Of a DNA stretch of 32,425 nucleotides, positions 5,165 through 26,278 are shown one piece after another. Source of the DNA: a bacterium (lineage in GTDB: Bacteria > Campylobacterota > Campylobacteria > Campylobacterales > Sulfurovaceae). The notes under the pieces are model-generated. The model was not told the DNA's origin and searched no databases. It saw only the letters and a list, made by a program, of their open reading frames with translations. The stretch covers positions 1 through 32,425 of the forward strand of contig JAHJJU010000081.1 in NCBI GenBank assembly GCA_018822805.1, written 5' to 3'. The stretch's first letter is position 1; every line of letters starts with the position of its first letter. The translations under genes and the position numbers were made by a program.

Positions 5165-6475
5165 TCATTTAATAACCTCTCCATTGTTCACGGTATAGGA
5201 GTCAGACATATTGACACTGTGGTAGATGGTTGTTCCATATTTTTTATTGTAGTATTGTAAAAGTATTTTTTGTTGGGTAGATTCAATGGAAGGGGTGAAC
5301 CAGCCATTGTTACTTAACACAATCATATTTTTCGGTTTGCCTTCATAAAGTTTTTCCGAAGTGGCCTCAAAACAGATGGCATTTCTATAGTGTACTCCGT
5401 CAATTGTATAGTCTGTAAAGTCGGCTGAAGCAACATAATCCGGTGCTCCATCAAAAAAGATTTTATTAACCCAACTGCCCATCCATGAGGGTAGAGGGTT
5501 CTTTTCACCAAATGGAACCAGTTTTACCTTGTTGGCTATTTGATGGCTTCCCTCTTTAAAAATATAGGTAGAGTTACGAGGAATGGTGTTATCCCAGTAG
5601 AGACCTCCTACAACAATGATGATTTTATTGGAGTAATGTTGAAGATCTTCCATGATTTGGGGTTGCATGTTAACAAAAAAGGCAAAGATAGATTCTGGAA
5701 AGACAATCACTGTTTGCTCTTTATCAATGGCTTCTCTAATGGCTACAAACACTTCATCCACATGTTTGGATATTAACTTTTCGTTCCATTTATCTTGTAC
5801 GGTTGTATGGGTGTTGTAGAGGGTGATTTTAGGATTGATGTCTTTTTTTTCTTCAAAATGAGCAGTAAAAGGGTGAGCCAGTAGAATTAAAAGAAGGTAG
5901 AAGAGTTGCTTTTTATAAAGTGAAAGTATCAGTGCCAACAGTACCAATCCAAATTGCCATTTTTCTATGCCTAAATAGCTGTTGGTAAACATCAGTTCAG
6001 GTTTAAACCAATCAAACCCAAAAGGATGAATGTATGAAAGTAATAATAAAATCACAGCTTTAGCAAGCATATCAAACCCCGTAGGGGCAGAGCCATGTCT
6101 CTGCCCTTGCTTCATAGGTAAAAAACGCCCAAAAAACTCAACCAAAGACAAAGTACCCCAAAAGATACTCATATAAATAAACCCCAGACCTAAAATAGGA
6201 AGGGGAATTGCCCATGCCATGTCATAGTTTTTGAAGCTGATACCGATCCACCAAAACCACAAAATACCAATCCAAAAACCGGTCCATACCCATCTCTTTT
6301 TGTTACCAGTCAATAAGAAATATAGAGCAGAAATGCCTAAAATGGTATTGATAAAATAGTTAATGAAACCAAGCCAATCTAGGTACATGGCTCCAGCACT
6401 TAAAAAGGCAATGAAAAAGCCTGCTGTTATATTCTTAATGGTAAAATATTTGCTTATTTTTACATATAAACTCAA
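5165..6475 (-). CDS. lnt: Apolipoprotein N-acyltransferase
   Basis: A 436-residue inner-membrane enzyme that N-acylates the N-terminal cysteine of lipoproteins. The N-terminal half has several membrane segments (about 15-55, 62-80, 88-118, 136-156, 173-200). The C-terminal half is a nitrilase-type domain with the triad E261 (F-P-E-S), K318 (K-V-K-L-V-P-F-G-E) and C368 (A-I-C-F-E). The start is a TTG with AGGGGA just upstream, only 11 nt from the divergent yajC start; no ATG occurs before residue 30. Residues about 123-132, in the loop between the third and fourth hydrophobic stretches, are encoded by a REP-like palindrome found again at 9801-9828. At 436 residues it is shorter than E. coli Lnt (about 510). 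Confidence 0.92.
   Translation of the reverse strand: MSLYVKISKYFTIKNITAGFFIAFLSAGAMYLDWLGFINYFINTILGISALYFLLTGNKKRWVWTGFWIGILWFWWIGISFKNYDMAWAIPLPILGLGFIYMSIFWGTLSLVEFFGRFLPMKQGQRHGSAPTGFDMLAKAVILLLLSYIHPFGFDWFKPELMFTNSYLGIEKWQFGLVLLALILSLYKKQLFYLLLILLAHPFTAHFEEKKDINPKITLYNTHTTVQDKWNEKLISKHVDEVFVAIREAIDKEQTVIVFPESIFAFFVNMQPQIMEDLQHYSNKIIIVVGGLYWDNTIPRNSTYIFKEGSHQIANKVKLVPFGEKNPLPSWMGSWVNKIFFDGAPDYVASADFTDYTIDGVHYRNAICFEATSEKLYEGKPKNMIVLSNNGWFTPSIESTQQKILLQYYNKKYGTTIYHSVNMSDSYTVNNGEVIK
6081..6108 (+). repeat. REP-like palindrome inside the lnt reading frame
   Basis: A 5' GTAG followed by GGGCAGAG, the loop CCATGT and CTCTGCCC. The stem is 8 bp and perfect. The reverse complement matches 9801-9828 in 27 of 28 bases. 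GTAG before a hairpin is the mark of REP sequences mobilised by Y1-type (RAYT) transposases. It reads through in frame in lnt and encodes residues about 123-132 in a loop between membrane segments. Confidence 0.75.
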
Positions 6476-9429: not shown

Positions 9430-9777
9430 TTGAATTGGGGTAAAGTTTTTTATATCTTTTTTACATTGATGAGTTTAACCACCTCTGTTTCATTTATTTT
9501 TGAAAACTCGGTGATTGCACTTTTTGCTGCAGCAAGTATTAACCTGATATCAAGTATTTTAAAACTGGGTGTACGAAATTTACTTTCAGCTGAACTTTTA
9601 GCAGGTTCTTTGGTGGCAGACTTACATTTACTTCCGGCATTTTTTATGTATCAGTTTGGGAATACAGAGACACATGCAGGGTTGATTACGGGTTTGGTTA
9701 TTGGTGCAATTATTGCAAATGTTTATACCATTGTTATTTCAATTGTAGAGAGTGCCAAGACCAAAGAGGATTTTTAA
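9430..9777 (+). CDS. Small integral membrane protein (DUF6394-like)
   Basis: A 115-residue protein made almost wholly of hydrophobic segments (about 5-27, 29-45, 56-75, 82-106), with a short charged C-terminus. The start is a TTG with AAGGAG 7 nt upstream; the next in-frame ATG would cut the first helix. It resembles the uncharacterised DUF6394 family of Campylobacterota. Its position after secF in a conserved Sec/leuS neighbourhood suggests an envelope role, but no function can be read. Its stop is 52 nt from that of the convergent mltB-like gene, with a REP-like hairpin between them. Confidence 0.75.
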   Translation: MNWGKVFYIFFTLMSLTTSVSFIFENSVIALFAAASINLISSILKLGVRNLLSAELLAGSLVADLHLLPAFFMYQFGNTETHAGLITGLVIGAIIANVYTIVISIVESAKTKEDF

Positions 9778-9800: not shown

Positions 9801-9828
9801 AAGGGCAGAGACTTGGCTCTGCCCCTAC
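9801..9828 (-). repeat. REP-like palindrome between convergent genes
   Basis: The minus strand reads GTAG, then GGGCAGAG-(loop)-CTCTGCCC. It is the second copy of the element inside lnt at 6081-6108, with one mismatch in 28. It lies between two convergent genes and ends 1 nt before the stop codon of the mltB-like gene, so it may act as a two-way terminator. Confidence 0.75.
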
Positions 9829-18869: not shown

Positions 18870-21863
18870 ATGACACAATCTGATGTTTATGAGTATCTTC
18901 TCTTAGAGGATACTCAGTTTAATGATAAGCTTCTTTTTGTCTGTAAAAATGACAAAGAGTCCCTAAAAACTGCTGACACGGCGACCCTTCTCAAGTATAA
19001 ACCCTTTATCCTTCCCGATTTAAGACTCTCACATGGTGATGATTTACGCTCTTTTCAAGTGGAGATTTATGAGCTTATCGAGGCATTGCATGGGTACTTT
19101 AATAGCAAAGAAAAAAAACTTTTAATCGCCCCACTACGTACCCTACTTATGCCTCTACCAAAAGAGGAGTTTTTCCCAACTTTAGAACTTGAGTTTGCCT
19201 CTACGGTTAATTTAACCGTATTAAAAGATAAACTCTACTATTGGGGTTATACTTTTGTCGATATTGTTACCCAAAAAGGTGAAGTCTCTTTTCGTGGGGA
19301 TATTATCGATATCTATCCCTTGGGCAATAATGTAGCCTACCGTATTTCACTTTTTGATGAAGATGTAGAGAGCATAAGAATATTCTCGGTAGACACTCAA
19401 AAAAGTTCTAAAGAGGATATTGAATTTATACAGATTATTCCTGCCGGATTGGGACTGAATGCTGAACAGTATAAAGCATGGAAAGAACGTGTTGAACAAA
19501 GTTCACTTGACAGTTTTGTAAAAGATATTGATAGTTTAGGTTTTTGGTATCTGAATGAACTGGGGGAAAACTATGTTCAATCTTTTACTGCTCTGTTTCT
19601 TTCTGCTATGCATGAAGAGTTGGAAGAGATATACTCCTTAGATAAGCCATTAATCTATCAAGAAGATTTCAACTTACCTCTTATTCCTAAAGCTAAAAAT
19701 TTCAGAGAGCTAGAGGTCATTAACCCTAACGCCATTATGAAATCAAATGCTCATAAAAAGATAACACTTATTGCTAAAAATGAGTCGATTATCCGTAGCT
19801 CCCAACTGCACTCTTTTGAAAATGTAGCGTTTGTTTATGAAGATATTATTGTTAATCTTATCTCGGATGAACAGGTGTTCATATCGTTAAATAAACCGAT
19901 TAAACGCAAAAAAGTCAAAAAAGCTTCCATTATTTTAGATGAGTTAAAACTGGGTGACCATGTCGTTCATGAAAATCATGGTGTAGGGCTGTTTAAAGGG
20001 GTAGAAAAACGGGTTGTTTTAGGAGCAACGCGTGAGTTTGTTTTGCTAATGTATCAAAATGAAGATTTGCTTCTGATTCCTGTAGAAAACCTCAATGTTA
20101 TTGACCGTTATGTGGCTGATTCGGGTGGATTGCCTATTTTAGACAAGATGGGCAAAGCGAGTTTCAAAAAGCTCAAAGGTAAAGTTAAAGAGAAACTTTT
20201 TGCCATTGCTTCTGAAATTATTAATTTATCAGCCCAGCGACACCTAAAAAAAGGAATTATGCTTAAACGTGATTTGGTAGAGCATCAAATCTTTATGAGT
20301 GAAGCAGGGTTTGTTCATACCGAAGACCAAGAAGAAGCGATTAACGGTATGTTAGAAGATATGGCAAGTGGTCGTATGATGGACAGATTACTAAGTGCTG
20401 ATGTTGGATTTGGTAAAACAGAAGTGGCAATGAATGGGATGTTTATCGCATGGAAAAACGGTTACCAATCGATGATGGTCGCTCCGACTACTTTGCTAAG
20501 TTCTCAACACTTCAAAAGCATGAAAGAGCGTTTTGGAAAGTACGATATTAAGTTAGGAAAACTTGACAGATTTACCACTGGAAAAGAGAAAACAGCTTTG
20601 CTTAAAGGGTTAAAAGAGGGTACGGTAGATATGGTGGTAGGAACCCATGCACTGCTAAAAGCCGAGTTTAAAAATTTAGCCTTTATTATTATCGATGAAG
20701 AGCATAAGTTTGGGGTAAAACAGAAAGAGGCTCTTAAAGAGATAGCCATTAATGTACATCTGCTTTCTATGTCGGCTACCCCAATTCCACGAAGTTTAAA
20801 CATGGCTCTTTCACAAGTCAAGACCTTTTCGGAAATCTTAACCCCACCCGTAGAACGTCAAGGGGTACGAACCTTTGTGAAGTCTTATGACGAAAAAATC
20901 ATCAAAGAGGCAATTACCCGTGAAATGCGACGAGGGGGGCAGATATTTTATGTTTTTAACTCCATTGCCCAGATAGAAGAGAAGAAGAGAATACTCTTGG
21001 AGTTGATGCCAAAACTACGCATTGCTGTGCTTCACTCTAAAATATCAGCTGCTCAAACCGAAAAAGATATGGAATTGTTTGAAGCTGGTGAGTATGATGT
21101 AATGTTGTCGACCTCTATTGTCGAATCGGGAATTCACATGCCACACGCCAACACCATGATTGTCGATGGAGCCGACAACTTTGGTATTGCCGACCTGCAC
21201 CAATTGCGTGGTCGTGTAGGACGTGGTGGAACAGAGGGTTACTGCTACTTTATGGTTGAAGATAAAGAGCGACTTACCGACAATGCCAAACGACGACTCT
21301 TAGCCTTGGAATCGCATTCCGATTTGGGTTCAGGAGCCGTTCTGGCCTTCCACGACTTAGAGATACGAGGTGGAGGAAACATCATCGGTGAAGCCCAGTC
21401 GGGACACATCAAACAAATAGGATACTCTCTCTACCTACGTATGTTAGAAGATGCCATCAAAGAGCTCAGTGGACAAGCCAAAGAGGAAGAGGAGGAGATA
21501 CAAGTTGATATTAAACTCACCATTAATGCCTACCTCAATGAAGAACTTATAGAAGAGGACAGACTCAGACTTGAACTCTACCGACGACTCTCTCAATGTG
21601 AAACCACGGGTGAAGTCTACGAAATAGAGACTGAAATAGCCGATAGATTTGGTAAACTTGATACCATTTCACGCCAATTCATCGATGTGATGGTGATGAA
21701 AGTCTTAGCCAAAGAGCAGAAAATTACCAAAGTAGCCAATGCCGGTGAAAAGGTTTTTATAGAGTTTGCCGATGGACATGATAGGGTGATGTTGAAGGCG
21801 TATAGCAAAGATGATGATGATTTGATTGCGACGGCTATGGGGTATTTGAAGGGGAAGTATTAA
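18870..21863 (+). CDS. mfd: Transcription-repair coupling factor
   Basis: A 997-residue DNA translocase that removes stalled RNA polymerase and recruits UvrA. The N-terminal third is the UvrB-like region. The RNA-polymerase-interacting (CarD-like) domain starts near 356 with L-G-D-H-V-V-H-E-N-H-G-V-G. The RecG-like motor has Walker A A-D-V-G-F-G-K-T-E near 510-518, the D-E-E-H box at about 609-612, S-A-T-P-I-P-R-S-L, and R-G-R-V-G-R-G. The C-terminal D7 domain follows. Length fits Campylobacterota Mfd and is shorter than E. coli (1148). The ribosome site is weak (AGGA about 15 nt upstream). Its TAA stop lies in the 56-nt palindrome at 21860-21915. Confidence 0.97.
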   Translation: MTQSDVYEYLLLEDTQFNDKLLFVCKNDKESLKTADTATLLKYKPFILPDLRLSHGDDLRSFQVEIYELIEALHGYFNSKEKKLLIAPLRTLLMPLPKEEFFPTLELEFASTVNLTVLKDKLYYWGYTFVDIVTQKGEVSFRGDIIDIYPLGNNVAYRISLFDEDVESIRIFSVDTQKSSKEDIEFIQIIPAGLGLNAEQYKAWKERVEQSSLDSFVKDIDSLGFWYLNELGENYVQSFTALFLSAMHEELEEIYSLDKPLIYQEDFNLPLIPKAKNFRELEVINPNAIMKSNAHKKITLIAKNESIIRSSQLHSFENVAFVYEDIIVNLISDEQVFISLNKPIKRKKVKKASIILDELKLGDHVVHENHGVGLFKGVEKRVVLGATREFVLLMYQNEDLLLIPVENLNVIDRYVADSGGLPILDKMGKASFKKLKGKVKEKLFAIASEIINLSAQRHLKKGIMLKRDLVEHQIFMSEAGFVHTEDQEEAINGMLEDMASGRMMDRLLSADVGFGKTEVAMNGMFIAWKNGYQSMMVAPTTLLSSQHFKSMKERFGKYDIKLGKLDRFTTGKEKTALLKGLKEGTVDMVVGTHALLKAEFKNLAFIIIDEEHKFGVKQKEALKEIAINVHLLSMSATPIPRSLNMALSQVKTFSEILTPPVERQGVRTFVKSYDEKIIKEAITREMRRGGQIFYVFNSIAQIEEKKRILLELMPKLRIAVLHSKISAAQTEKDMELFEAGEYDVMLSTSIVESGIHMPHANTMIVDGADNFGIADLHQLRGRVGRGGTEGYCYFMVEDKERLTDNAKRRLLALESHSDLGSGAVLAFHDLEIRGGGNIIGEAQSGHIKQIGYSLYLRMLEDAIKELSGQAKEEEEEIQVDIKLTINAYLNEELIEEDRLRLELYRRLSQCETTGEVYEIETEIADRFGKLDTISRQFIDVMVMKVLAKEQKITKVANAGEKVFIEFADGHDRVMLKAYSKDDDDLIATAMGYLKGKY

Positions 21864-21915
21864 CCTGAGTTCGACGGAATACCATAGCTATGGTATTCCG
21901 TCGAACTCAGGTTAA
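21860..21915. repeat. Perfect 56-nt palindrome with no loop
   Basis: Two arms of 28 nt are exact reverse complements, centred between 21887 and 21888 (centre TAGCTA). The ends read TTAACCTGAG and CTCAGGTTAA. The mfd stop codon, TAA at 21861-21863, is in the left arm. It could form a cruciform or a very stable RNA hairpin that ends mfd transcription. It is richer in GC than its surroundings, which suggests an inserted element. Confidence 0.95.
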
Positions 21916-26166: not shown

Positions 26167-26278
26167 GTAGGGACAACGCCCCCGTGCTTGTCCGATGCCC
26201 GATAGATAAAACAATTTGAATGATTGTTGTCCGAAAATCAAAATGAGCATCGGACAACCACAGGGGGATTGTCCCTAC
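26167..26278. repeat. 112-nt inverted pair of REP-like sequences (BIME-like)
   Basis: Two 32-nt arms, 26167-26198 and 26247-26278, are inverted copies matching in 28 of 32 bases, around a 48-nt AT-rich centre. Each starts with GTAG on its own strand, then GGACAA, a loop holding CCCCC and GTG, and TTGTCC. The mismatches lie in the loops, which keeps both stems intact. The right end overlaps the stop codon of the DUF6172-like gene (TAG, complement of 26275-26277). Confidence 0.85.

Follow-up and report, generated by a model that had tools for sequence, protein, structure and literature searches.

How does a palindrome that also stands between genes come to be read as part of a housekeeping protein, and what becomes of it once it is there? 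The question is raised by lnt, the gene for apolipoprotein N-acyltransferase, in a stretch of 32,425 nt from a member of the Sulfurovaceae (assembly GCA_018822805.1, contig JAHJJU010000081.1), the whole of which we call the window. An earlier note on this DNA had described the palindrome as a REP domesticated within lnt. REP movement is still poorly understood. When occupied and empty coding sites are found in close genomes, the reading frame serves as a ruler and gives direct evidence of the bases gained or lost per insertion, and the repeated occupation of homologous loops tells which protein segments tolerate foreign peptides. Our preferred answer, which we hold with considerable confidence, is that the lnt hairpin belongs to the GTAG-type REPs, which a RAYT (REP-associated Y1/HUH transposase) spreads, that it has been inherited since an old entry and that it is tolerated in a loop that accepts changes of length. 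The class of element and the explanation by loop tolerance are already known; recurrence at homologous sites among these deep-sea relatives and the pattern of replacement exceed the published accounts that we found.

Results

The hairpin in lnt and the loop that it encodes

Read on the plus strand, the lnt hairpin is GTAGGGGCAGAGCCATGTCTCTGCCCTT; the intergenic copy, read on the minus strand, is GTAGGGGCAGAGCCAAGTCTCTGCCCTT. The two, which are inverted relative to each other, are identical at 27 of 28 bases, as the earlier note had claimed, and the inverted-repeat finder extends the match to 35 nt at 91%. Each copy folds into a hairpin of 8-9 bp (z = -2.6 and -3.8 against shuffles). A palindrome of 20-40 nt with an unpaired GTAG at one end is the form of the GTAG REP superfamily, and the hairpin in lnt has this form. 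The genes on either side of the intergenic copy end at 9777 and 9830, while lnt reads through its own copy in frame (Table 1).

Table 1. Positions of lnt, of the REP copies discussed and of the RAYT-like gene
Feature	Position	Strand	Remarks
GTAG-tagged REP hairpin within lnt	6081..6108	+	GTAG end at 6081; stem GGGCAGAG/CTCTGCCC at 6085-6106
lnt, apolipoprotein N-acyltransferase, 436 aa	5165..6475	-	residues 124-132 (GQRHGSAPT) REP-encoded
REP-encoded in-frame codons, G Q R H G S A P T	6080..6106	-	predicted low-confidence loop between helices 91-116 and 133-146
Intergenic copy, same REP family as lnt hairpin	9801..9828	-	between two convergent genes
RAYT-like Y1_Tnp ORF	G000:C86:33820-34353		REPs on both sides, one within the reading frame

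The protein was assigned to Lnt by NCBIfam NF008934 (457.6 bits, cut-off 427) and by a profile search that matched solved Lnt chains, and its predicted fold agrees with solved Lnt structures (TM 0.68-0.74); as a single query it gave no match in the Pfam or PDB sequence search. In the AlphaFold model, with a mean pLDDT of 81, values fall below 50 at residues 123-129, so that the REP site is modelled with low confidence as a loop between two predicted membrane helices, in agreement with the earlier note. By analogy with the topology of E. coli Lnt, this loop probably faces the cytoplasm, remote from the active site on the periplasmic side. The insert stands at the identical place in independent assemblies, which rules out an assembly artefact.

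A multi-copy family linked to a RAYT-like gene

The genome that contains the window (G000; 2.79 Mb in 121 contigs, 99.8% complete) holds the stem pattern GGGCAGAGNCNNGNCTCTGCCC at 45 places with up to three mismatches, and the reversed pattern, used as control, at none. A chance match of the lnt hairpin is thereby ruled out, and the multi-copy family supposed by the earlier note is present. We distinguished 46 copies, and GTAGGGG stands at one end of nearly all of them; about 56 GTAGGGG hairpins are listed when a looser stem pattern is used. Stems include CAGAG, TAGAG, TCAAG and others, both arms co-vary, and the stem always stands behind GTAG. About eight inverted pairs resemble REPINs: their members are oppositely oriented, stand about 41 nt apart and have the GTAG ends inward. 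To judge from the aligned copies, the unit is probably somewhat longer, with a form close to AACC(T/C)-GTAGGGG...CCC-TTTGTT. Across the genomes of the genus, 127 of 142 distinct copies lie outside ORFs of at least 100 aa and 15 inside, which makes coding copies a minority. Five of the six reading frames of the hairpin are open, and three of these five are in use.

A RAYT-like ORF is found among the REP copies, as the earlier note had supposed. It is one of seven Y1_Tnp matches in the genome and sits among REPs at G000:C86:33.6-34.6 kb. The ORF matches PF01797 (IS200-like Y1_Tnp) with 30.1 bits against a cut-off of 23, and its sequence MPNHVHF contains HVH, an HUH motif; its best NCBIfam match is NF047646 (REP_Tyr_transpos), at 63.8 bits and under the cut-off of 80. 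The REP within its frame has a counterpart at the same place of a RAYT gene in G080, where the cognate palindrome is different. For RAYT genes with their own in-frame REP at the same place in two lineages, we found no report in the open-access literature. The RAYT enzyme of E. coli cuts at CT beside the hairpin in a GTAG-dependent manner (PMC8266576), and by analogy these data would fit REPs of the lnt type. We infer that the REPs described here are moved by RAYT catalysis; our search of the literature found no direct in vivo demonstration of RAYT-driven REP movement.

The second RAYT lineage is present in G080 and G062 and has its own REP family, GTAGAGACAAGGCRYGCCTTGTCTC (L274:155-182 and 492-519; L273:1316-2154); G080 carries one of these REPs in frame within its RAYT gene.

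Comparison with known repeats

The family resembles the GTAG-tagged REP superfamily in its short hairpin, its unpaired GTAG end, a copy number far above chance, a mainly intergenic location, inverted dimers, RAYT neighbours and a minority of in-frame copies. Di Nocera, De Gregorio and Rocco 2013 (PMC3733652), who define GTAG REPs, count Sulfurovum among their hosts and suggest that copies within genes are tolerated because they fall in flexible loops or linkers. They also describe in-frame intragenic units in several non-rickettsial species, and the opinion of the earlier note that such units are rare outside Rickettsia is thereby contradicted. In their account, the recB genes of two Xanthomonas species are hit at about the same site and other units lie at different sites; here, in contrast, homologous sites recur across several genomes, the stem sequence varies between genera, and the targets are Lnt, HisH, EI of the PTS, ArgJ, ABC-F and the RAYT itself. 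With REPIN/RAYT systems (Nunvar 2010, PMC2817692; Bertels and Rainey 2011, PMC3116915), our family shares inverted REP pairs and a REP-flanked Y1 transposase gene, but it has about 56 copies instead of hundreds, single REPs predominate, and one copy lies inside the transposase frame. Like Rickettsia palindromic elements (RPE), these repeats are palindromic and stand in frame within functional genes. However, the intragenic RPE-4 and RPE-6 carry the CGTC tag of a superfamily that has no linked transposase (PMC3733652), whereas here the tag is GTAG, not CGTC, and a RAYT-like gene is linked.

The lnt insert among relatives

Presence of the REP codons was scored in 30 Lnt sequences of the genus, taken mostly from draft metagenome assemblies, none of which offers an empty lnt site of the same species. 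Seven genomes have them (G000, G076, G036, G078, G077, G066 and G062) and the remaining Lnt of the genus do not. Relatives without the repeat lack the residues in question, so that the lnt copy is an in-frame insert; the two outcomes that the earlier note had named beforehand as contrary to its reading, the same residues in repeat-less relatives and a lack of further copies, were not seen. Five of the seven (G000, G076, G036, G078 and G077) form a clade with support 99/95 on the Lnt tree. Since the REP is common to these five genomes, and Lnt of G000 is only about 70% identical in protein sequence to that of the other four, the event must be old. We hypothesize that a single GTAG-type REP, a non-autonomous hairpin of roughly 27-39 nt spread by a RAYT, entered lnt in the ancestor of these Sulfurovum-like genomes and has been kept vertically since. 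It would have survived because most of its frames are open, because the net change of length at occupied sites is a multiple of three and because it fell into a length-tolerant loop between helices.

The REP is thus not private to one genome, being shared by at least five, and the same loop has been occupied again elsewhere. G066 and G062 are placed outside the five-genome clade, and on the Lnt tree three changes are required to explain the REP label; well-supported branches force at least two of them. A single origin for all Lnt-loop REPs of the genus is rejected on this ground, loss or recombination being indistinguishable from gain in this count. The lnt gene of G066 has a second in-frame REP at another inter-helix loop (GQTHWSAPT).

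In G076, G077, G036 and G078, a stretch of about 100 nt at the lnt REP conflicts with the phylogeny of the remaining lnt (L093, L095, L064 and L094), indicating recombination around the repeat. PtsI of G000 groups with G066, G060 and G062, while the nearest sequences to Lnt, SecD and SecF of G000 are those of G076/G036/G078/G077. From these few genes, the lnt region may have come into G000 by horizontal transfer.

REPs at recurrent sites in other genes

In-frame REPs also occur in hisH (G000, G071, G077, G036, G080, G018), in ptsI, encoding HPr-EI (G000, G066, G062, G060, G080), in argJ (G066) and in ABC-F linkers (G000, G074, G076). The Lnt loop, the hisH loop, the ptsI segment, the ABC-F linker and the loop of the RAYT gene each hold REPs in more than one genome, several of them with different stem types. 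The ptsI site, for instance, has both CAGA[G/C] and TAATC stems, each in frame. We propose that such loops and linkers serve as permissive landing places for REPs.

Reuse of the Lnt loop extends beyond the GTAGGGG family. In G016 (genus g6), the same loop holds a copy of the unrelated GTAGGGTGTGCAATTGCACACC. Each of four g6 genomes contains this sequence dozens of times and its control pattern nowhere. A GTAG-tagged palindrome, seen in one sequence only, lies in this loop in G037, of another genus, and several genera have TTCACTC-type arrays there. For a loop that holds unrelated REP families in different genera, we found no report in the open-access literature. Among 92 Lnt genes, 10 of 11 stems of at least 12 bp fall in residues 108-141, which is a rough guide only, as the region was chosen after viewing and kin sequences were counted as independent. 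Most of these stems are long palindromes on the gene's own helix codons, and the long palindromes of other genera are probably the outcome of a different process.

The occupied sites differ in the length that they have gained. In ptsI, the segment with the REP does not exceed in length that of REP-less relatives from this and other genera. In hisH, six residues are gained on balance; G018 gains three, and its HisH is nearly identical to that of the closely related G008 except that VGANPRGC replaces KKKNT, 24 nt where 15 nt stood. Without net change in ptsI and with so small a gain in hisH, native codons were either replaced or removed afterwards; the sequences would be compatible with either a one-step replacement of target bases or an insertion followed by trimming. 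Insertion, the term of the earlier note, is too simple for these comparable sites, from which native codons are missing. Length-neutral REP occupation is another pattern for which we found no report in the open-access literature.

The hisH site that is REP-occupied in other genomes carries heptamer-like repeats (GAACAGn, GTGAAAA) in G063 and G065 (L225, L228).

Discussion

One observation speaks against plain vertical inheritance of the lnt REP. The 39-nt block is more conserved than its flanks predict: G000 is identical to G076/G036 at 38 of 39 positions while the flanks differ by 26-32%, and the close relatives G076 and G077 differ at 8 of 39. It is possible, if unlikely, that in-gene REPs are repeatedly overwritten by the genome's current variant, through RAYT-mediated exchange, gene conversion or reinsertion at the same target, the coded loop thus tracking the mobile family. 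Such turnover could also explain why in-gene copies are identical to another copy of their own genome in lnt (G000, G076, G062), ptsI (G000, G062) and hisH (G000), why 1-4 bases separate copies at orthologous sites, the two arms of the stem being altered jointly, and why one ptsI site has two stem types in frame. However, the lnt and ptsI copies of G066 and the ptsI copy of G060 mismatch their own genomes, and the lnt copies of G077 and G078 are decaying. Own-genome matches are partly expected with so few variants, recent parallel insertion yields the identical pattern, and the recombinant tract in G076/G077/G036/G078 muddies inheritance at the site. We regard own-genome identity as a lead and not as a result.

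We are somewhat more doubtful of a wider version, according to which REPs would overwrite short coding stretches at preferred sites and resident copies would be rewritten to the current variant, re-editing the loops of housekeeping proteins and even of their own transposase. The hints are the length neutrality in ptsI, the exchange of 24 for 15 nt in hisH, the own-genome identity and the parallel self-REPs in two RAYT lineages. If in-gene copies do track the current variant, mobile DNA would have a route to keep altering essential proteins.

The function implied by the word domesticated in the earlier note is not supported. Selection on the hairpin, either as a regulatory structure of the lnt mRNA or as a functional peptide, would account for the intact copies in G000, G076 and G036 and for the strong nucleotide conservation of the 39-nt block. 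We consider it very unlikely, as most relatives in the genus do without the insert, the copies of G077 and G078 have decayed, and the same family is read in three different frames in unrelated proteins. The REP-encoded peptide is presumably neutral. Altogether, the earlier note is partly supported: the core of its inference holds, and the repeat is ordinary in its class and of interest in its recurrence.

It is hardly credible that quasi-palindrome correction or replication template switching built the lnt hairpin from local sequence with no mobile element, as the perfect palindromes of other genera at the same loop border might suggest, since the hairpin has many exact genomic copies, a GTAG tag and a RAYT neighbourhood, and neither of its arms matches the adjacent lnt codons; the genome-wide family refutes this origin for the window copy.

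For the long palindromes of other genera, such an origin is likely. Six lnt genes (L200, L202, L208, L083, L152 and L156) have perfect or near-perfect palindromes with stems of 12-21 bp at the 3' border of the Lnt loop, in which one arm, the right one, consists of conserved helix codons. To judge from their sequences, they look like recurrent template switching or quasi-palindrome correction.

Two further palindromic features were seen in the window. At 26167-26278, between leuB and a convergent ORF, two REPs of a second family (GTAGGGACAAYSCCCCYGTGSTTGTCC) form an inverted pair with the GTAG ends outward, and a perfect 56-nt palindrome without spacer occupies 21860-21915, immediately 3' of the mfd stop codon.
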